A stretch of 47,007 nucleotides of DNA from Thiobacillus sp. 65-29 (GTDB lineage: Bacteria; Pseudomonadota; Gammaproteobacteria; Burkholderiales; Thiobacillaceae), in assembly GCA_001899775.1 (NCBI GenBank), contig MKWN01000047.1:1-47007 (forward strand), written 5' to 3'. Numbering within the stretch: the stretch's first letter is position 1; every line of letters begins with the position of its first letter. The notes beneath the pieces were generated by a model, which ran no database searches, was not told the origin of the DNA, and worked only from the letters and a program-made list of their open reading frames with translations. Positions 25,705 through 36,829 of this stretch are shown here, in pieces. Position numbers and translations under genes: made by a program.

Positions 25705-26928
25705 ATGAAATTCCGCCCGGGTCATCTGCTGGCGTCCTTCGCCCTGCTGCTCGTGATCGGGCTGTGGCTGCGGCATTCCAGCGCGCCACCATCGATCCGC
25801 ATCGGCGTGCTGCATTCGCTGAGCGGCACGATGGCCGCAAGCGAACGCCCGCTGGTGGATGCGGTGCGCCTGGCGGTCGAGGAAATCAATGCGGGCGGCG
25901 GCCTGCTCGGCCGTCCGGTCGAAATGGTAATCGCCGACGGCAAGTCGGACGCGCGCACCTTCGCCGCCGAAGCGGAACGGCTCATCGCCGCGGAGCACGT
26001 CAGCGCGTTGTTCGCCTGCTGGACCTCGGCCTGCCGCAAGGCGGTGAAGCCGGTGGTGGAGCGGCACCGCCACCTGTTCTTCTATCCGCTGCAATACGAA
26101 GGCCTGGAGCAGTCCCCATATATTTATTATATGGGCTCGGCACCCAACCAGCAGATCATCCCCGGCACCCGCTGGGCACTCGACACGCTGGGTAAACGCG
26201 TCTATCTGGTGGGTTCGGACTACGTGTTCCCGCGCACCGCCAACCTCATCGTCCGTGATCTCGTGCGAGCCAACCATGGCAACGTGCTCGCGGAACGCTA
26301 CCGTCCCCTGGGCGACGCCGATTTCAGCGGCATCGTCGCCGAACTACGCGCGCTGCGGCCGGACGTGGTGTTGAACACGATCAATGGCGACAGCAACGGT
26401 CATTTCTTCCGCGCGCTGCACGCCGCCGGACTCGGCGGCATCCCGGTGATGTCGTTCAGCCTTGCCGAGGATGGCCTCCGGACGATCGGCCCCGACGCCT
26501 TTCACGCCAACCATTATGCGGTGTGGAACTATTTCCAGAGCCTGCCGGGTGGAACCAACCAGCGTTTTGTCGAGGCCTTCCGAAAACGCTATGGCGCCGA
26601 CCGCGTGACCAGCGATCCCATCGAGGCCACGTATGTCAGTGTCCAGTTGTGGGCGCAGGCCGTGCGCGACGCCCGCACCGACGAGGCGGAAACGGTCAAC
26701 CTGGCCATGGCGGTGCAGAGCATGGCCGCGCCCTCGGGGATTGCCGCGGTTGACCGGCGCACGCGTCATCTGTGGAAGCATGTGCGCATCGGCAAGGCGC
26801 GTTCCGACTATCAGTTCGAGCAGGTGTGGGAAGCGGGCGACGCATTGCGCCCGGAACCTTTCCCGGACTACCGGTCGCGTGCCGAATGGCAAGACCTGGT
26901 CGCAGATCTGCCGGAGGCCGCTCCGTGA
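25705..26928 (+). CDS. Urea/amide-type periplasmic binding protein, sensor partner
   Basis: A 407-residue type I periplasmic binding protein of the UrtA/AmiC/FmdD group. Residues 1-22 form a signal/anchor segment (HLLASFALLLVIGLWL). Then IRIGVLHSLSGTMAASERPLV, AVEEINAGGGLLGR and FACWTSACRKAVKPV follow the UrtA pattern closely. QYEGLEQSPYIYYMGSAPNQQ and NHYAVWNYF are ligand-cleft segments typical of urea/short-amide binders. No permease or ATPase gene is nearby. The stop overlaps the GTG of the GGDEF-EAL receptor (GTGA), so the two are made together. I infer that it reports ligand to that receptor rather than feeding a transporter, as NspS does for MbaA in Vibrio cholerae. The ligand is not certain. 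Confidence 0.85.
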   Translation: MKFRPGHLLASFALLLVIGLWLRHSSAPPSIRIGVLHSLSGTMAASERPLVDAVRLAVEEINAGGGLLGRPVEMVIADGKSDARTFAAEAERLIAAEHVSALFACWTSACRKAVKPVVERHRHLFFYPLQYEGLEQSPYIYYMGSAPNQQIIPGTRWALDTLGKRVYLVGSDYVFPRTANLIVRDLVRANHGNVLAERYRPLGDADFSGIVAELRALRPDVVLNTINGDSNGHFFRALHAAGLGGIPVMSFSLAEDGLRTIGPDAFHANHYAVWNYFQSLPGGTNQRFVEAFRKRYGADRVTSDPIEATYVSVQLWAQAVRDARTDEAETVNLAMAVQSMAAPSGIAAVDRRTRHLWKHVRIGKARSDYQFEQVWEAGDALRPEPFPDYRSRAEWQDLVADLPEAAP

Positions 26929-29900
26929 ATACGCGCCGCATCGCCACGCGTCTCCTGCTGAGTTACCTGCTGGTGGCCGTGCTGCCGCTCGCCGGCCTCG
27001 CCGCGTTCTTTCTCGCTTCGTTCGAGACTTCGCTGCGCGATACCGTGCTGGCGAACATGGCAGCCATCGCCGACAAGAAGGCCGAGCAGATCGACACCTA
27101 CGTGGCCGGGCGGCTGAACGACGCCCGGCTGTTCAGCGAGCGCCCCAGCCTGCGCCAACACATGGCCGCGCTCACGCGGGCCTACCGCGCGGGCGGCATT
27201 CAAGGGGCGGCATACCGCGCCGCCGCCGCCGAGGCCCATGGCAACTTCCGTCGCACCTTCGAATCGGACAGCTTTCACGACCTGCTGCTGATCGATCCGG
27301 CCGGGAACGTCGTGTTTTCCATGGCGAAGGAGGCGGACCTGGGCGCCCATCTCAGGGATGGCGCTCACCGCGGCAGCGAACTCGCGCGCGGATTCGAACT
27401 GACCATACGCGCCCTGCAGACCCATGTCAGCCGATTTGCACCGTATGCCCCCTCGGGCAACCGGCCGGCCGCGTTCCTCCTGGCGCCGGTCATGGAAGAC
27501 GGACTGGCTATCGGCGTGCTGGCCCTGCAGCTGGACGTGAAGAAACTGGAGGCGGTGACGTCCGACCGCACCGGCCTGGGCCGCAGCGGCGAGACCCTGC
27601 TGGCGCAGGAGATCGACGGCGAAGCGCTCTTCATGGGGCCGCTCAGGCACGTTTCGCAGGCAGCGTTCCGCTACCGGGTTCCGCTGCGCTCGACGGCCTT
27701 GCCGATCCAGCAGGTGCTGCGGGGTGAACACGGCAGCGGTTTCGTGCGCGATTATGCCGATGTGGACGTGGTCGCCGCCTGGCGCTACCTGCCTGCGCTG
27801 GCCTGGGGCATGGTGGTGAAGATCGACGCCGACGAGGCTCTGGCGCCTGCGGTACGGCTGCGCCACATCACCTATTCGGCCGTGCTCACCTTCCTGGTGC
27901 TGTCCGCGCTCGCCGCGCTGTATCTCGGGCGGGGGTTGTCACGTCCCATCCAGGCGCTGACCGCGGTCGCCGACCGCATCTCGACGGGAGATCTCGGCCA
28001 GCGCGCCGAACTCGGCGACATCGAGGAATTGAACCGGCTCGCGTTGGCGTTCAATCACATGACGACGGCCCTGTCCGAGTCCCGCCAGAATCTTGAAGCC
28101 CGGGTCGAGGCGCGTTCGCAGGAATTGCGCGCGCTCACCACGCTGCAGAATGCGATTCTCGACAACGCCAGCGCTCTGGTGACGGTGCTCGACCGCGACG
28201 GCCGCATCTGCCGGTTCAACCGTGCATGCGAGACGCTGAGCCAGTATTCCTTCGCTGAGGTCGAAGGACGGTTCGTCTGGGATTTTCTGCTGCCGCCCGA
28301 GGAGTGCGACGACATGCGCGACAAGGCGTTCCGCGCGCTCGTAGAGCATCCGGAGCGGATGCGCGGGGTCCACACCAACCACTGGGTCGCGCGCGACGGC
28401 ACGCGGCGGCTGATCGAATGGTCGAACAGCCTGCTGCTCGACGAGCAGGGGCGGGTCCAGTTCCTGATCGGCATCGGCATCGACGTCACCGACAAGACGC
28501 TTGCCGCCGCAGCGCTCGCGGAAAGCGAAAAGAACCTGCATCATGCCCAGCGTATCGCCCAGGTCGGCAGCTGGGAGCTCGACCTTGTCAGTGGCAAGCT
28601 CGACTGGTCGGACGAAGTCTATCGCCTGTTCGAAATCGACAAGACGCGTTTTGGCGCCACTTACGACGCTTTTCTCTCAGGCATCCATCCGGACGACCGC
28701 GAGCGGGTGAACCGCGCCTATTCCGAATCGGTGGCCTCCCGCACCCCTTACGAGATCACCCACCGCCTGCGCATGGCGGATGGTCGTATCAAGTGGGTGA
28801 ACGAGCGCTGCGAGACACAGTACGACGAAACCGGCCGCGCGCTGCGTTCCAGCGGTACCATCCAGGACATTACCGCGCGCAAACTCGCCGACGAAACCCT
28901 GCGCCTCTACGCCAATGTTTTCGAGCACAGCGGCGAGGCCATCCTCATCACCGACAGCGCAGGCCGCATTCTGGCGGTGAATCCCGCCTTCACGCAGTTG
29001 ACCGGATACACGCTTGCGGACATCGCGGGCAAGAACCCCAAAATCCTGTCCTCCGGACAGACGTCCGCCGAGACCTACCGGTCCATGTGGATGTCTCTCG
29101 GCGAGACCGGCTACTGGCAGGGCGAGATCGTAGACCGTCGCAAGGATGGTACGCTGTACCCGAAATGGCTGACGATCTCCGCCGTACGCCAGCCGGATGG
29201 CGGTGTTACGCATTACGTCGGCAGCTTCACCGATATCTCCGAGCGCAAGAAGGCCGAGGCCCGAATCACCCAAATGGCCTATCACGACGGACTGACCGGC
29301 ATGCTCAACCGCATCGGGCTGCAAAGCCAGCTGGACCAGGCGCTCGCCATGGCCGGCCGGGAGCGGCGCGAATTGGCCGTGATTTTCCTTGACGTGGACC
29401 GTTTCAAGACCATCAACGACACCATGGGGCACGCGGTCGGCGACGAGCTGCTCGTCGAGGTGGCGTATCGCCTGCGCAACAGCCTGCGCGCCAGCGACAT
29501 CGTCGCGCGCTTCGGCGGCGACGAATTCGTGGCGGTGCTGACCGAGGTGGACGATGCCCCCGCGGCGGCTCGCGTGGCCGAGAAGATCCTGCACGCGCTG
29601 GGCGCACCCTACCTCATCGACGAACACGAACTGCATTCGAGCGCAAGCATCGGCATCGCCTTCTATCCGGGCGACGGCAATGACGCGGACACGCTGATGA
29701 AGAACGCCGACACCGCGATGTACCATGCCAAGGCGCAGGGGCGGAACAACCTGCAGTTCTTCACCGCGGAAATGAACCGGGCGGCAGTGAGACGTCTGAC
29801 GCTCGAGCAGGATCTGCGGGTTGCCATGGAAGCCCGCCAGTTCGTGCTGCATTACCAGCCGAAGCTCGATGGTGCCACCGGCCGCCCCGTCGCTGTCGAG

Positions 29901-30566
29901 GCGCTGGTGCGCTGGCAGCATCCGCACAGAGGACTGCTTACGCCAGCCGATTTCATTTCAGTCGCCGAGGAAACCGGGCTGATCCTGCAACTGGGCGACT
30001 GGGTTCTGGACGAAGCCTGCCGCCAGTTGCGCAACTGGCGCGAAGCCGGCTTGGTCGATCTGGTCATGGCGGTCAACCTGTCGGCGCATCAGTTGCGTTC
30101 CCCCAGCCTGCTGGCCGGTGTTGCGGACGCCCTCGACAAGTATGATCTGCAAGGCTCCGAACTCGAACTGGAAGTCACGGAATCCGTGGCGATGCACGAT
30201 CCCGATACCAGTATCCGCAAGCTGAAGTCGCTGCGCGACCTCGGCGTGCGGCTGGCGATCGACGATTTCGGCACCGGCTATTCATCGCTCAGCTATCTCA
30301 AGCTGCTGCCGATCCAGGCCCTCAAGCTCGACAAGTCCTTCGTGCGCGATATCGAAACCGACAGCAACGATGTCGCCATCTGCACCGCCACCATCGCCCT
30401 GGCGCACAGCCTCGGCCTCGCCGTCGTGGCCGAAGGTGTCGAGAGCGAGGCGCAGCGCCTGCTGCTCGCCTCGCACCAGTGCGACTTCATGCAGGGCTAC
30501 CTGTTCAGCCGGCCGCTGCCGCCGGAGGCCGCGCTCGAATTCGTCCGCCAGCGGCTTGTGATGTGA
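26925..30566 (+). CDS. dCache-HAMP-PAS3-GGDEF-EAL membrane receptor
   Basis: A 1213-residue inner-membrane c-di-GMP enzyme starting at GTG 26925. Order: TM1 (about 7-29), a large periplasmic dCache-like sensor (about 35-305, with HDLLLIDPAGNVVFSM and the second module), TM2 (about 313-332), HAMP (SRPIQALTAVADRISTGDL), three PAS domains (about 400-520, 535-650, 660-775), GGDEF (motif at 864-868) and EAL (motif at 992-994). The inhibitory RxxD is present as RASD five residues before GGDEF. PDE residues DDFGTGYSSLSYL, ALKLDKSFV and AEGVES are intact. It may therefore switch between synthesis and breakdown of c-di-GMP. Coupled to the upstream binding protein. Confidence 0.92.
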   Translation: MNTRRIATRLLLSYLLVAVLPLAGLAAFFLASFETSLRDTVLANMAAIADKKAEQIDTYVAGRLNDARLFSERPSLRQHMAALTRAYRAGGIQGAAYRAAAAEAHGNFRRTFESDSFHDLLLIDPAGNVVFSMAKEADLGAHLRDGAHRGSELARGFELTIRALQTHVSRFAPYAPSGNRPAAFLLAPVMEDGLAIGVLALQLDVKKLEAVTSDRTGLGRSGETLLAQEIDGEALFMGPLRHVSQAAFRYRVPLRSTALPIQQVLRGEHGSGFVRDYADVDVVAAWRYLPALAWGMVVKIDADEALAPAVRLRHITYSAVLTFLVLSALAALYLGRGLSRPIQALTAVADRISTGDLGQRAELGDIEELNRLALAFNHMTTALSESRQNLEARVEARSQELRALTTLQNAILDNASALVTVLDRDGRICRFNRACETLSQYSFAEVEGRFVWDFLLPPEECDDMRDKAFRALVEHPERMRGVHTNHWVARDGTRRLIEWSNSLLLDEQGRVQFLIGIGIDVTDKTLAAAALAESEKNLHHAQRIAQVGSWELDLVSGKLDWSDEVYRLFEIDKTRFGATYDAFLSGIHPDDRERVNRAYSESVASRTPYEITHRLRMADGRIKWVNERCETQYDETGRALRSSGTIQDITARKLADETLRLYANVFEHSGEAILITDSAGRILAVNPAFTQLTGYTLADIAGKNPKILSSGQTSAETYRSMWMSLGETGYWQGEIVDRRKDGTLYPKWLTISAVRQPDGGVTHYVGSFTDISERKKAEARITQMAYHDGLTGMLNRIGLQSQLDQALAMAGRERRELAVIFLDVDRFKTINDTMGHAVGDELLVEVAYRLRNSLRASDIVARFGGDEFVAVLTEVDDAPAAARVAEKILHALGAPYLIDEHELHSSASIGIAFYPGDGNDADTLMKNADTAMYHAKAQGRNNLQFFTAEMNRAAVRRLTLEQDLRVAMEARQFVLHYQPKLDGATGRPVAVEALVRWQHPHRGLLTPADFISVAEETGLILQLGDWVLDEACRQLRNWREAGLVDLVMAVNLSAHQLRSPSLLAGVADALDKYDLQGSELELEVTESVAMHDPDTSIRKLKSLRDLGVRLAIDDFGTGYSSLSYLKLLPIQALKLDKSFVRDIETDSNDVAICTATIALAHSLGLAVVAEGVESEAQRLLLASHQCDFMQGYLFSRPLPPEAALEFVRQRLVM

Positions 30567-30648: not shown

Positions 30649-31047
30649 ATGGCCGCTCTCACCGTGCAGCAACTCGATCAACTGAACCAGCAACTGAAAC
30701 AGTCCTACCAGGATCTCCTGCAGGAAATCCACAGCGAACTGGACAACACCGGCGATCAGCATCGCATCGACCTGCTCAACCGCGAGCCGGGCGACAGCGG
30801 TGACGAATCGCTGGCCAACGCGCTTGCGGACTTCAACGTGCTGCGCTTCGATCGCCACATCCGCGACCTGCGTGACATCGAAGCCGCGTTCGGGCGCATC
30901 AAGGCGGGCGAGTACGGCGTGTGCACCGACTGCGGCGACGACATCGCTTTCGAGCGCCTGCGCGCCTATCCGACCGCCAAACGCTGCATCGTCTGCCAGC
31001 AACGGCACGAAAAGCAATTCGCCCACGAAGGGCACCCCAAACTCTGA
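30649..31047 (+). CDS. DksA/TraR-family zinc-finger protein
   Basis: A 132-residue protein of the DksA/TraR family, which bind the RNA polymerase secondary channel and modulate initiation. An N-terminal coiled coil (about 5-45 and 60-85) leads to the C4 zinc finger CTDCG...CIVCQ (about 97-121). The coiled-coil tip reads GDSGDESLAN, an acidic tip that differs from the DxxDxA tip of DksA, so ppGpp synergy is uncertain. A strong AAAAGGAG precedes the ATG. Shorter than E. coli DksA (151 residues), so a paralogue rather than the housekeeping gene is likely. It lies 15 bp before hpf. Confidence 0.88.
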   Translation: MAALTVQQLDQLNQQLKQSYQDLLQEIHSELDNTGDQHRIDLLNREPGDSGDESLANALADFNVLRFDRHIRDLRDIEAAFGRIKAGEYGVCTDCGDDIAFERLRAYPTAKRCIVCQQRHEKQFAHEGHPKL

Positions 31048-31062
31048 CCAAAGGGACGCAAG

Positions 31063-31368
31063 ATGAAAACACCGCTGCAGATCACTTTCCGCGACATGGA
31101 GCGCTCGGATGCGCTGGAAACCCACATCCGCGAAAAGGCGGAGAAGCTCGAACAGTTCTTCGCCGACATCGTGAGTTGCCGCGTCGTCGTCGAACAGGCC
31201 GCGAAGCACCAGCAGCAGGGCAAGCCCTTCAACGTGCGCATCGAACTTGGCGTCCCGGGCAAGACGCTCATCATCGACAAACAGGTCCACGAGGATGCCT
31301 ACGTGGCCCTGCGCGACGCCTTCGACGCTGCCAAACGCCAGCTGGAAGATTACGCGCGGCAGTTGTGA
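31063..31368 (+). CDS. hpf: Short ribosome hibernation-promoting factor (HPF/RaiA family)
   Basis: A 101-residue S30AE/HPF-fold protein: LQITFRDMERSDALETHIREKAEKLEQFF, then RVVVEQAAKHQQQGKPFNVRIELGVPG, and the last helix YVALRDAFDAAKRQLEDYAR. These proteins bind the ribosome decoding region and promote hibernation in stationary phase. It lacks the C-terminal dimerisation domain of long HPF. It follows the DksA-like gene by 15 bp, and pairing two starvation-response proteins in one unit is coherent. AAGGGACGCAAG precedes the ATG. A kinase gene starts 19 bp downstream. Confidence 0.88.
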   Translation: MKTPLQITFRDMERSDALETHIREKAEKLEQFFADIVSCRVVVEQAAKHQQQGKPFNVRIELGVPGKTLIIDKQVHEDAYVALRDAFDAAKRQLEDYARQL

Positions 31369-31387
31369 CGCCAATGCACAGGCGGTC

Positions 31388-32917
31388 ATGGACGACACCC
31401 CCGAACTGATCCGCCACCTGCTCGATCCGGCCTGCTACGACCATCCGGCCGGCCCGGTGCGCCTGATCGAAACGCACATTTCCTGGGTGCTGCTCACGGG
31501 CGAGATCGCCTACAAGCTGAAGAAGCCGCTCGACCTCGGTTTTCTCGACTTCAGCAGCCTTGCCAAGCGGCTCGATGCCTGCCGCGAGGAAGTGCGTCTG
31601 AACCGGCGGCTGGCACCGGACATCTACCTCGGTGTCGTTCCCATCACCGGTACACCGCACGCGCCCCGCGTCAACGGCGGCGGGGAGGCGTTCGAATACG
31701 CGGTGAAGATGCGCCAGTTTCCGGTCGACGCGACGCTCGACCGCCTCGATGCCGCCGGTACGCTGGATGCCGCGCAGATCGAGGCCATCGCCGCCACCGT
31801 GGCGCGCTTTCATGAAAACGATTGCGCACGCGCGCCGGCCGACAGTGCCTGGGGCAGCCCCGACACCCTCTGGCAGCCGGTCGCACAGAATTTCGTGCAG
31901 ATCGCGCCCAGGCTCGATGCCGATGCCGACCGCGAGCGGCTCGCCGTGCTGGAACGCTGGAGCACCGCCGAACATGCCCGCCTGGCGCCGCTGATGACTG
32001 CGCGCAAGCGCGCCGGCTGGGTGCGCGAATGTCACGGCGATCTGCATCTGGGCAACCTCGCGTGGGTCGACGGTCGCCCGCTGGTGTTCGACTGCATCGA
32101 ATTCAATCCGGCGCTGCGCTGGATCGACGTGCAGTCGGAAATCGCCTTCTGCTACATGGATCTCTTGCAGCGTGGGCATTCGCAGTGGGCGTGGCTGTTC
32201 CTCAACGTCTGGCTGGAATACACGGGCGATTTTTCCGGACTGGCCCTGCTGCGCTATTACGCTGTCTACCGCGCATTGGTGCGTGCCAAGGTCGCCGTGC
32301 TGCGCGCGGGGCAACTCGACGGCGCCGCGCGGCGCGACGCCTTCGACGAGGTGCGCACCCTGCTCGATCTGGCCCTGTCATTGACCCAGGCAGCGCCCGC
32401 GTGCCTTGATATCACTCACGGTCTGTCCGGCTCCGGCAAGACCACGGTGACGCATCGTCTGATGCAGACACCGGGCGCAATCCGCGTGCGCTCCGACGTC
32501 GAACGCAAGCGCCTGGCCGGCCTCGACGCGCTGGCGAAAAGCGGCTCGGGTGTGGGCGCAGGGCTGTATGCCGGCGACGCCACGCGGCGCACTTATACCC
32601 ATCTTGCCGCCTGCGCCGGCGCGCTGCTCGACGCGGGCTGGCCGGTCATCGTCGATGCCACTTTTCTCGCGCGCTGGCAGCGCGAGCTGTTGGACGAAAC
32701 CGCGCGCAGCCACGGCGTGCCCTTCCGCATCCTCGATTTTCCGGCGGACCTTGCCACCCTGCGCGCGCGCATCGTCGAGCGCGCACGGGCCGGGGGCGAC
32801 GCCTCCGAAGCGAACCTGGAGGTGCTGCAGCATCAGCTCGACAGCCAGGAGATCCTCACTGCGGAAGAGCAGGCGCTGTGTGTGAACGCCGGGGAGATTC
32901 GGCGACACGAGGGATGA
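31388..32917 (+). CDS. Two-domain kinase: APH-like phosphotransferase plus P-loop kinase
   Basis: A 509-residue cytoplasmic protein. Residues about 1-335 form an aminoglycoside-phosphotransferase/choline-kinase-like domain, with the catalytic loop CHGDLHLGNL and the metal-binding Asp in VFDCIEFNP. Residues about 340-500 form a P-loop kinase (gluconate-kinase/Zeta-toxin-like) with Walker A GLSGSGKTT and a DATF/RW motif. This fused architecture is conserved in many proteobacteria but its substrate is unknown. The MDDTPELIRHLL start at 31388 was chosen. Its TGA overlaps the ATG of the phosphatase gene (ATGA), so the two are translationally coupled. Not an antibiotic-resistance gene on this evidence. 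Confidence 0.85.
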   Translation: MDDTPELIRHLLDPACYDHPAGPVRLIETHISWVLLTGEIAYKLKKPLDLGFLDFSSLAKRLDACREEVRLNRRLAPDIYLGVVPITGTPHAPRVNGGGEAFEYAVKMRQFPVDATLDRLDAAGTLDAAQIEAIAATVARFHENDCARAPADSAWGSPDTLWQPVAQNFVQIAPRLDADADRERLAVLERWSTAEHARLAPLMTARKRAGWVRECHGDLHLGNLAWVDGRPLVFDCIEFNPALRWIDVQSEIAFCYMDLLQRGHSQWAWLFLNVWLEYTGDFSGLALLRYYAVYRALVRAKVAVLRAGQLDGAARRDAFDEVRTLLDLALSLTQAAPACLDITHGLSGSGKTTVTHRLMQTPGAIRVRSDVERKRLAGLDALAKSGSGVGAGLYAGDATRRTYTHLAACAGALLDAGWPVIVDATFLARWQRELLDETARSHGVPFRILDFPADLATLRARIVERARAGGDASEANLEVLQHQLDSQEILTAEEQALCVNAGEIRRHEG

Positions 32918-34219: not shown

Positions 34220-36682
34220 TCAAGCGCGAGGCGTTCCCGCAGAAGTACGCCGGCTTGTTGGCAAAGTGGTCCCCGTGGGCCAGGTGCTGGCGAGGGGGGC
34301 GCGCAGTCGGGCCTCCGCCTCCATCGCCGGCAGCGGCCGGCTGAGGAGAAAGCCTTGCATATCCGTGCAGCCGGCATCGCACAGGAAGGCGTGCTGTTCC
34401 GGCGTCTCGACACCTTCGGCGATGATGCCCAAGCGCAGGCTTTTCGCCAGCTGGACGATGGCCTGGACGATGGCGGCCTGATCCGCGTCGTGGGTGACAT
34501 CGCGCACGAAGGACTGGTCGATCTTCAGGCGGTCGACCGCGAAGCGCTTGAGATAGCTCAGCGACGAATAGCCGGTGCCGAAGTCGTCGAGCGACAGGCG
34601 CACGCCCAGCGCCTTGAGCCGCTGCACGGTATCGAGCGTATTCTCGACATCCTGCAGGAGGATCGACTCGGTCAGTTCCAGTTCCAGCAGATGGGGGGGC
34701 AGACCGCTGCGCGCCAGCGCACCGGATACCGTTTCGACAAGCCCGCCGCGGCGGAACTGCATCGCCGAAAGGTTCACCGACATGACGAGGTCGGGCAGGC
34801 CCGCCTGGCGCCAGGCCTGCGCCTGACGGCACGCCTGCTCCAGGACCCAGGCGCCGATCGGCACGATGAGGCCGCAGTCTTCCGCCACCGGGATGAAGCG
34901 CCCCGGTGGCACCTCGCCCAGCTCCGGATTGCGCCAGCGCAGCAGCGCCTCGGCGCCGATCGCCCGGCCGCTGGCGACGTCGAACTGGGGCTGGTAATGC
35001 AGGTGCAGTTCGGCACGGAAAAGGGCCTGATGCAGTCCATTCTGCAACAGCAGGTGCTCCTGTGCCTGGAGGTTCATGCGCTCGTCGAAGAAGCGATAGG
35101 TGTTGCGCCCCGCATTCTTGGCGTTGTACATCGCCGTGTCGGCCTTCTGCAGCAAGCGGTCGAAATCACTGCCGTCTTCGGGATATACCACGACCCCGAT
35201 GCTGCACGAGGCGGCCAGTTCGTGGCTGCCAATCAGGATCGGCTCGGCGAGGTGTTCGAGAATTTCGCCGGCGACCCGTTCCACCGCTTCCATGTCCGGA
35301 ACGCTGTCGAGCAGCACGATGAATTCGTCGCCCCCTTGCCGGCTGATGGTGTCGCTGTCGCGTGTGCAGCGCGCGAGGCGTGTGACGACCGACAGCAGCA
35401 GTTCATCGCCGGCCGCGTGGCCGAGCGTATCGTTGACCACCTTGAAATTGTCCAGGTCGAGAAACAGCAGGCCGACCCGGGCATGCGCCCGCCTCGCCTG
35501 CGCCACCGCATGCTCGAAGCGGTCACGCAGGAGCACGCGGTTGGGCAGACCGGTCAGCGCGTCGTGGTGCGCCAGATATTCGATGCGCGCCTCGGTCTGC
35601 ACCCGTTCCGTCACATCGCGATCCACGCCCTGGAAGCCGGCCAGCTTGCCCGTTTCATCGAACAGCGGCGAAGCGTTCGATTCGAGAATGCGGTAGCTGC
35701 CATTGCGGTGGCGCCAGCGCAGGGTCACATTGGCCCAGCCATGGCGTCCCGCCACGGCTGCGGCGAACGTCGTGCGGTAAAGCGGAAGATCGTCGGGGTG
35801 AATGAGCGCCTCGGCCGGCATGGCCAACAACTCGTCCGTCGTGTAACCCAGCGCCTCGACCACATGCGTGTTGCTGTACACGTGCCGGCCATTGGCATCG
35901 AGCGCCCAGATCCAGTCCGCCGAATGCTCCGCCATGGCGCGGAAGCGTGCCTCGCTCTCGCGCAGCGACTGCTCCATGCGCGTGCGCTCGCTGATGTCCG
36001 CGAAAGAGACCACCGTCCCCACCAGTGTGCCGTCACGGTATAGCGGCTGGGAACGGTATTCGACCGGGAAACTGGTGCCATCCTTGCGCCAGTGCACCTC
36101 GTCGTCGACCTGCGCCGCTTCGCCCGCCTGCGTGGCGAGGCGCACGCGGCATTCCTCCCTGGGATAGGGGCGGCCGTCCGGATGCGAATGGTGGATGAGA
36201 GGGTGCACGAACTGGCCCAGCATCTCCTCGCGCGTATAGCCCAGCATGTCGAGGCAGGCGCGGTTGACGAAGGTGCAGACGCCGTTCGTGTCGATGCCGA
36301 AAATACCCTGGGGCGAGGAATCGAGCAGCAACCGGAAGCGCGCCTCGCTCTCGCGCAGCGCCGCGAAGGCAGCCGCACTTGCGTCGCTTGCGGCTGCGCG
36401 ACCGGCGGCCTTGCGCATCATGGCGGGGTCCTGTCCGGATTTCAGTTGCGCGCGCGCCGCCTGGCGCCGGCGTCGTGCCTCGCGCAGTCCAACCTCCGGA
36501 TACACGCCAAGCGCCAGAGTCTTGCGCTTGCCGCCATAGCGGTAGTCCAGCCGCCAGTAGCGCGACCCATCCGGCTTGATCAGCAGGTACATGCCACCAC
36601 CATCCGCAAGCTTCAGTGGCCTGTCGGCGGGCATCGCTTCATGGATGCGTTGGACGGTAAGTGGGGTGGCGGTGCGGATCAT
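34220..36682 (-). CDS. Integrase arm-domain/PAS-PAS-GGDEF-EAL fusion
   Basis: An 820-residue cytoplasmic c-di-GMP enzyme with an unexpected N-terminus. Residues about 8-90 (LKLADGGGMYLLIKPDGSRY, YRYGGKRKTLALGVYPEVGL, then REARRRRQAARAQLKSGQDP) match the DUF4102 arm-type DNA-binding domain that opens P4-like phage integrases. The integrase core-binding and catalytic domains are absent. After an Ala-rich linker come PAS1 (about 115-235), PAS2 (about 240-360), GGDEF (motif 450-454, I-site RDSD at 441-444) and EAL (motif 578-580, DDFGTGYSS 699-707, AEGVET). All catalytic motifs are intact. ATG 36682 is supported because the homology begins within the first ten residues. There is no TM segment. 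A basic low-complexity tail follows EAL. Confidence 0.92.
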   Translation of the reverse strand: MIRTATPLTVQRIHEAMPADRPLKLADGGGMYLLIKPDGSRYWRLDYRYGGKRKTLALGVYPEVGLREARRRRQAARAQLKSGQDPAMMRKAAGRAAASDASAAAFAALRESEARFRLLLDSSPQGIFGIDTNGVCTFVNRACLDMLGYTREEMLGQFVHPLIHHSHPDGRPYPREECRVRLATQAGEAAQVDDEVHWRKDGTSFPVEYRSQPLYRDGTLVGTVVSFADISERTRMEQSLRESEARFRAMAEHSADWIWALDANGRHVYSNTHVVEALGYTTDELLAMPAEALIHPDDLPLYRTTFAAAVAGRHGWANVTLRWRHRNGSYRILESNASPLFDETGKLAGFQGVDRDVTERVQTEARIEYLAHHDALTGLPNRVLLRDRFEHAVAQARRAHARVGLLFLDLDNFKVVNDTLGHAAGDELLLSVVTRLARCTRDSDTISRQGGDEFIVLLDSVPDMEAVERVAGEILEHLAEPILIGSHELAASCSIGVVVYPEDGSDFDRLLQKADTAMYNAKNAGRNTYRFFDERMNLQAQEHLLLQNGLHQALFRAELHLHYQPQFDVASGRAIGAEALLRWRNPELGEVPPGRFIPVAEDCGLIVPIGAWVLEQACRQAQAWRQAGLPDLVMSVNLSAMQFRRGGLVETVSGALARSGLPPHLLELELTESILLQDVENTLDTVQRLKALGVRLSLDDFGTGYSSLSYLKRFAVDRLKIDQSFVRDVTHDADQAAIVQAIVQLAKSLRLGIIAEGVETPEQHAFLCDAGCTDMQGFLLSRPLPAMEAEARLRAPLASTWPTGTTLPTSRRTSAGTPRA

Positions 36683-36723
36683 GGAAGCGGATGGCGGGAA
36701 CCGGCTCGACGTGATGGCTCGCT

Positions 36724-36747
36724 GATACCGTCAAGGATACCGACAAA
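36724..36747. promoter_or_regulatory. Abutting 12-bp direct repeats upstream of the arm-domain fusion gene
   Basis: GATACCGTCAAG (36724-36735) and GATACCGACAAA (36736-36747) match at 10 of 12 positions and touch each other, 42-65 bases upstream of the ATG. A short inverted repeat TGGTA/TACCA follows at about 36762-36777. Arm-type domains of integrases bind direct repeats, so this is a candidate binding site; only the repeat itself is seen. Confidence 0.45.
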
Positions 36748-36829
36748 AGCGCATTCGATAATGGTACGCAATTACCAGAACGACGAATTCCGCAGTCTCA
36801 TGCAGCCGGCGGCCCCCTGCCATCGGGGC

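Follow-up and report, generated by a model that had tools for sequence, protein, structure and literature searches.

PdeL (YahA) of Escherichia coli is a DNA-binding cyclic di-GMP (c-di-GMP) phosphodiesterase that possesses a LuxR-type helix-turn-helix and controls its own gene, and a review names it as the trigger enzyme that binds DNA (PMC5052742). Among integrases, IntS of KplE1 and P4 Int repress their own genes, as described in PMC2951348. Here I describe a gene on the minus strand of a 47,007-nucleotide stretch of DNA from Thiobacillus sp. 65-29 (contig MKWN01000047.1), the whole of which is termed the window. Its product, the fusion protein, consists of an integrase arm-type DNA-binding domain joined in frame to a complete PAS-PAS-GGDEF-EAL c-di-GMP enzyme (Table 1). 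Comparative analysis shows that such fusions form a family kept in Thiobacillus, whose members are predicted to bind repeats in the promoter region of their own gene, and likely control their own transcription in step with c-di-GMP.

An integrase arm domain joined to a c-di-GMP enzyme

The initial annotation of this gene, made from the window sequence, had read it as the arm-type domain of an integrase, followed by an alanine-rich linker, two PAS domains, an intact GGDEF domain with its I-site and an EAL domain, the integrase core-binding and catalytic domains being missing. Each part of this description was recovered, and the profile search, structure prediction and homologue search that it had proposed all agree with it. 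The N-terminal segment scores 82.6 bits for PF13356 (Arm-DNA-bind_3; Pfam cut-off 27, E = 2.2e-23), and the EAL domain is matched by PF00563 (E = 2.6e-73). The I-site RDSD begins nine residues ahead of the GGDEF motif, and the two together (RDSDTISRQGGDEF) correspond to those of a diguanylate cyclase; the EAL domain carries complete catalytic motifs, as expected of a trigger phosphodiesterase. A Pfam scan identified no integrase core-binding or catalytic family in the protein, and both (PF22022 and PF00589, respectively) were found in 10 of 10 sampled integrases. Because it lacks these domains, the fusion protein is not an integrase.

Structural evidence points to the same identity for the N-terminal segment. 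The only solved structures matched by its sequence are the integrase entries 3ju0 (E = 6.9e-22) and 3jtz/3rmp. An AlphaFold model of residues 1–101 (predicted local distance difference test 86.9, predicted template modelling score, pTM, 0.77) matches 3ju0, 3jtz and 3rmp, all of them integrase arm-type domains, and nothing else at E ≤0.001; it superposes on 3ju0 with template modelling scores of 0.78/0.83 and a root-mean-square deviation of 0.8 Å.

A search with residues 1–112 returned 104 proteins, of which 100 combine the arm domain with PAS and four are integrases. Of these 100 fusions, 96 carry the GGDEF motif with its I-site and 93 carry the EAL motif; truncation accounts for six or more of the others, and many also possess a GAF domain. 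The GGDEF, EAL, NLS, TE, DDFG, KID and EGVE motifs are all present in 89, and two arm residues, Asp46 and Arg53, are invariant in 100 of 100. At the genome level, the best 80 loci comprise 28 fusions (808–1231 amino acids), one fusion broken by a stop (locus L053) and 51 others with frames of 151–475 amino acids. Fusion loci come under the titles Thiobacillus, Thiobacillaceae or Hydrogenophilales, or from metagenome bins with loose labels. A single arm frame of 824–1244 amino acids, and no more than one, is found in 33 of 56 Thiobacillus genomes (E ≤1e-15), and in a 34th, G008, the fusion is broken. In this broken gene (L053, on G008 contig 295) the stop lies soon after the arm domain, and the second of the upstream repeats described below is decayed.

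The enzyme part was also used as a query, in the form of the arm-less protein P0119 (E ≤1e-250). This identified one enzyme gene in each of 33 genomes of the genus: 31 fusion genes, the broken gene of G008, and one gene (G032) cut by the end of its contig. No clear arm-less orthologue was therefore found in the genus, the sole candidate being that of G032, which ends at the contig edge with its N-terminus unseen. Among 300 genomes drawn from the order, an arm frame longer than 700 amino acids was found only in the two Thiobacillus genomes among them (E ≤1e-26, best 16 candidates per genome). In 369 genomes of the class, a weak search with the diverged fusion P0122, limited to the best two candidates per genome, gave no enzyme match reaching the arm part, the lowest query residue matched being 149. 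P0122 is one of three diverged arm and GGDEF-EAL fusions among the matches listed, with P0114 and P0117; one of them is named Thiohalobacteraceae. The remaining PF13356 matches in the genome of the window are three, of which one (L002) has Lys46 and Glu53 and two (L003, L004) are too diverged to place. A distant arm match (33% identity) also occurs in genome G013 (contig 37, 73817–74071), in a frame of 677 amino acids, long for an ordinary integrase.

The codons of the arm domain indicate that it is under purifying selection in the fusions. The ratio of nonsynonymous to synonymous substitution rates is 0.05–0.22 in 10 of 11 pairs, and 0.44 in one pair with a synonymous rate of 0.06. Pairwise identity among 29 fusions averages 77% in the arm domain, 78% in GGDEF and 82% in EAL, and among 63 integrase arms 59%. 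The 820-residue open reading frame starts with an ATG. A translation start downstream of residue 100, which would leave out the arm domain, is unlikely because of this selection on the arm codons, and because the arm match begins at a start codon in 28 of 28 fusion loci.

In a tree of arm sequences, a branch of support 99/95 separates 39 fusion rows (the window, 28 loci and 10 of the 100 proteins) from 66 integrase rows. An enlarged tree, which adds P0107, P0110, P0114, P0117, P0122 and P0141 and leaves out three long integrase rows, separates 45 fusion from 63 integrase rows with support 99/93. The integrase arms nearest to the fusions, in the first tree, are L076, L077, L079, L083, L100 and P0100 (joint group 99/97). 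Since they are unrooted, these trees are compatible with a single origin of the fusion arms but do not prove it. The initial annotation had proposed that a signalling gene captured the 5′ end of an integrase gene; the placement of the fusion arms on one side of a supported branch agrees with this, but the fusion belongs to a genus-wide family. A recent one-off capture was rejected, as the fusions form one cluster spread across the genus.

The upstream repeats and the arm sites of integrases

I compared 30 upstream regions, namely those of the window gene, of the 28 fusions and of L053. They have in common a GTACCA-like half-site, a gap of 22–24 base pairs (bp), and then TGACGGTAY-N3-TGACGGCATC, located 62–68 bp before the start codon. 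Many columns within this element carry 1.4–2 bits, while the flanks mostly carry 0–0.6 bit, and the best element scores are 15–22 out of 22. Of 13 further fusion loci, 12 score 16–22, L151 having been left out of this scoring. The element of the window gene, TGTCGGTATCCTTGACGGTATC, has one match in the window at three mismatches, and none in 100 shuffles. A TANNAT sequence follows the second repeat by 6–8 bp in 28 of the 30 regions, 27–33 bp before the start.

With a strict pattern of the element (≤1 mismatch), 28 sites were found in 25 of the 56 genus genomes, and none with a reversed-pattern control. Of these, 24 are located before a fusion gene, one before an integrase gene (G020), and three inside one homologous coding gene, whose proteins are 63–68% identical. 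Leaving that coding gene aside, a strict site is present in 24 of the 33 fusion genomes versus one of the 23 other genomes. No broad regulon was found with the strict motif across the 56 genomes; one that relies on a weaker motif is conceivable.

The same 12-bp tandem is also found before the start of integrase genes from other bacteria (for example L062, L073, L100, L101 and L109), with variant tandems such as TGGGGGTAT, TGAGGGTAT and TGTTGGTAT before others. Judged by its bases and spacing, the upstream element of the fusions is an arm-type site of the kind that precedes genuine P4-type integrase genes.

In order to relate the arm domain to its site, I gathered 320 loci (the best 80, 233 from further searches, among the matches listed, six others and the window), and kept the 223 in which the arm motif was readable and the upstream DNA extended for 150 bp or more. 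These correspond to 161 distinct arm sequences: 132 integrases, 28 fusions and L053. An integrase row is here an arm domain outside a fusion, with domain content checked individually only in the sample of 10 mentioned above; the catalytic motif H-x-F/L/M-R is present in 110 of the 132, most of the other 22 being short or cut frames. A site caller blind to the protein placed a tandem site before 133 of the 161. In the integrases, arm residue 53 follows the base preceding GGTA: Arg with C in 33 of 33, Glu with G in 46 of 46 and Gln with T in 25 of 25, with two cases of Phe and G (106 clear calls); three further rows are ambiguous for this base, one of them with His53. The base has 1.53 bits of information, all of it captured by column 53; column 46 captures 1.49, and the next best column 0.60. 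On the opposite strand, Arg, Gln and Glu would face G, A and C, respectively, a chemically sensible set of pairs.

The best tree, which was built without those columns, implies 17 changes of the residue and 17 of the base. Among disjoint pairs with different residues at position 53, the 16 closest are 68–78% identical elsewhere, and in all 16 the base differs as the rule predicts. The rule was also applied to a hold-out of 28 unused loci from the search of 300 genomes of the order, 25 of which have a readable arm; it was obeyed by all 18 with a site (Glu-G 10, Arg-C 4, Gln-T 4), the remaining seven of the 25 being without one. In the fusions, the predicted base C is present in 22 of 22 clear calls, with two ambiguous and four without a strict site. 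Since the fusion arm carries the residue pair of integrases that have such sites, it is predicted to read the repeats upstream of its own gene.

Changes in individual lineages bear on this pairing. In the fusions of genomes G021 and G022 (L026/L059 and L027), the arm has changed at Tyr42, Arg48, Lys52 and Val60, and the repeats are altered too. These parallel changes suit a linked protein-DNA pair, but the repeats of L048 and L078 have decayed while the same four residues are unchanged, which speaks against it. Among the full-text matches listed, with subscription papers largely outside the search, I found no published residue-base rule for arm domains; the rule may nevertheless be known from the work behind 3rmp.

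Table 1. Features of the fusion gene and its upstream region in the window (amino acid numbering of the fusion protein).
Feature	Position	Strand	Basis
Fusion protein gene, 820 amino acids: arm - linker - PAS - PAS - GGDEF - EAL	34220..36682	(-)	Open reading frame, Pfam
Arm DNA-binding domain PF13356, residues 8-92	36407..36661	(-)	Pfam, structure match
Asp46 codon, second specificity position of arm domain	36545..36547	(-)	Column information, motif reading
Arg53 codon, residue tracking the arm-site base that precedes GGTA	36524..36526	(-)	Residue-base table
Alanine-rich linker, residues 93-113	36344..36406	(-)	Translation
PAS domain 1, residues 115-230	35993..36340	(-)	Pfam
PAS domain 2, residues 268-353	35624..35881	(-)	Pfam
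GGDEF domain, residues 371-527; GGDEF at 450; I-site RDSD	35102..35572	(-)	Pfam, motifs
EAL domain, residues 550-783; EALLRW at 578	34334..35035	(-)	Pfam, motifs
Intergenic region between DUF2238 gene and fusion gene, holding the predicted operator	36683..36829	(-)	Map of open reading frames
Arm-type direct repeat 1, TGTCGGTAT	36737..36745	(-)	Upstream alignment
Arm-type direct repeat 2, TGACGGTATC, 12 bp after repeat 1	36724..36733	(-)	Upstream alignment
Half-site GTACCA, inverted, 22 bp ahead of repeat 1	36762..36767	(-)	Upstream alignment
Extra half-site TGGTA, also in sister species L036	36773..36777	(-)	Upstream alignment

The fusion gene has a second c-di-GMP gene some 3.6 kb away (26772–30566, plus strand), whose product has 1264 amino acids and an arm-less dCache-HAMP-PAS-GGDEF-EAL architecture, the dCache match being below the curated cut-off. 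Genes of the dksA, S30EA and AAA/APH kinase types are also located nearby (30649–32917, plus strand), and some or all of the dksA, hpf and kinase genes are found beside 6 of 29 fusion loci.

Predicted autoregulation and its alternatives

The best reading of these observations, in my analysis, is that the fusion enzyme would be a PdeL-like trigger phosphodiesterase derived from an integrase, and likely autorepressing. The arm domain would read the tandem repeats in the promoter region of its own gene, with the bound protein covering about −35 to −20 of a promoter whose −10 element is TANNAT. Because it would cover this region beside the −10 element, binding there would most likely repress, as P4 Int and IntS do. 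PAS input, and c-di-GMP on the EAL domain or the I-site, may shift the oligomeric state and hence DNA occupancy, as proposed for PdeL. Arm domain and operator would have been captured jointly from an integrase gene. I consider it reasonably likely that a whole recognition pair, the arm domain and its arm-site operator, has in this way moved from a mobile element into host signalling, with a two-residue code (46 and 53), and with PAS input, c-di-GMP and DNA occupancy as one circuit. The earlier suggestion of an enzyme tethered to specific DNA gains a predicted target from this, in the promoter region of its own gene.

A number of observations weigh against this reading. No strict tandem site is present for 28 of the 161 arm rows, including four intact fusions, nor in 9 of the 33 fusion genomes. 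The second repeat is decayed in L048, L053, L078 and L153, and the core is altered in L027, L045, L047 and L059; 41 of 8144 background windows, in a background that contains integrase sites, reach a score of 16, and the scores of the decayed or altered sites (15–18) overlap this tail, so that position and alignment, rather than score, carry the claim there. Only one independent residue-base pair falls on well-supported branches, making the independence of the changes weakly supported, and two of the diverged fusions depart from the invariant pair (His53 in P0114, Glu46 in P0122). TANNAT is missing after the repeats in two of the 30 regions, those of the window gene and of its sister L036, and the geometry argued for repression therefore differs from that of the window itself; in both, which share the extra TGGTA half-site, the promoter may sit elsewhere. 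Finally, in the full-length model the arm domain is confident, but the overall pTM is 0.40, making it uninformative on the domain arrangement.

The position of the repeats could also be read the opposite way, with the protein as an activator at its own operator, in a PdeL-like positive feedback where the arm repeats replace a missing −35 element. PdeL does activate its own gene at low c-di-GMP, according to PMC5052742. By eye, no −35 hexamer is found at the usual distance from TANNAT, which counts against repression and would suit activation, as would the regular placement of TANNAT after the second repeat. However, the repeats would centre near −30, and a protein centred there usually blocks the polymerase. 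Integrases also repress from similar positions, as reported in PMC2951348, and I regard activation as rather unlikely. A different role, as a DNA tether at a number of positions that serves local c-di-GMP signalling or a wider regulon, with the own promoter as one target among others, draws on the relaxed search: allowing ≤3 mismatches gives matches in at least 54 of the 56 genomes, and few for the reversed pattern. As these loose matches exceed the control, other targets are conceivable; the distribution of the strict sites, mostly before the fusion gene, argues against a general tether, and I hold it to be doubtful.

The decayed sites in lineages where the protein is intact would fit an arm domain that has lost DNA binding and serves in folding or dimerization, with the repeats kept only as a promoter for other factors. 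Against this stand the two site-tracking residues, invariant in every one of the 100 fusions, and the kept bases, which match the cognate arm site in both identity and 12-bp spacing; this explanation appears very improbable. That the join is a chance in-frame event or an assembly artefact without function is barely conceivable, as it recurs in many assemblies, including a contig of 3.01 Mb under the name Thiobacillus sedimenti (P0031), and its arm codons are under purifying selection.

Should autoregulation through the arm site be correct, the fusion would represent the domestication of an integrase arm domain whose address is known and can be predicted from sequence. The exact predicted operator, the genus-wide comparative set, and the possibility of point changes at residue 53 and at the base before GGTA make this claim directly testable. 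Beyond the fusions, the residue-base rule predicts the arm sites of P4-type integrases generally, and would help to map the attachment regions of genomic islands.

Comparison with known systems

The initial annotation had stated that no system of this design was described. For the arm-domain version this agrees with the literature: no report of an arm domain or DUF4102 joined to GGDEF or to c-di-GMP signalling was found in a full-text search, largely without subscription papers, and the literature matches listed for Thiobacillus with a diguanylate cyclase or an integrase DNA-binding domain contain no such system. The design principle, however, is described for E. coli PdeL. What is new here is the shared upstream arm-type element and the residue-base rule; a DNA-binding, autoregulating phosphodiesterase is already known from PdeL. 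DNA-binding c-di-GMP enzymes are few, and in the fusion the predicted DNA reader derives from a recombinase.

The sensor and enzyme part has its own arm-less counterparts. The dual PAS-GGDEF-EAL proteins P0119–P0121 and P0123, and DibA, possess the same combination; P0119 shows 69% identity over query residues 106–420, and in P0119–P0121 and P0123 the sequence begins with the PAS linker or only shortly ahead of it. The DibA family model (NCBIfam NF045675) has a cut-off of 980 bits, and the window protein reaches 532.7.

On the DNA-binding side, the P4-type tyrosine integrases (DUF4102, IntSXT subgroup) share with the fusions the arm profile, the fold and the specificity residues (PMC8138268; 3ju0, 3jtz and 3rmp). 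Both also have arm-type repeats in 12-bp tandem upstream of the gene, but the fusions carry signalling domains in place of the core-binding and catalytic domains. For intS of KplE1 and P4 int, the likeness extends to an arm-domain protein whose sites overlap its own promoter, the sites of the fusion being predicted ones; these two are recombinases with measured repression, whereas that of the fusion is inferred (PMC2951348).

PdeL is close in design. It is an EAL protein not known to carry PAS or GGDEF domains, and the fusion protein, with two PAS domains and a GGDEF domain, differs from it in this respect. Both combine an N-terminal DNA-binding domain with an active-type EAL domain, and PdeL binds its own promoter region under an influence of c-di-GMP, as is predicted for the fusion protein. 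According to PMC5052742, PdeL acts from a far-upstream imperfect palindrome, in positive autoregulation, whereas the fusion protein carries an integrase arm and faces promoter-proximal tandem repeats.

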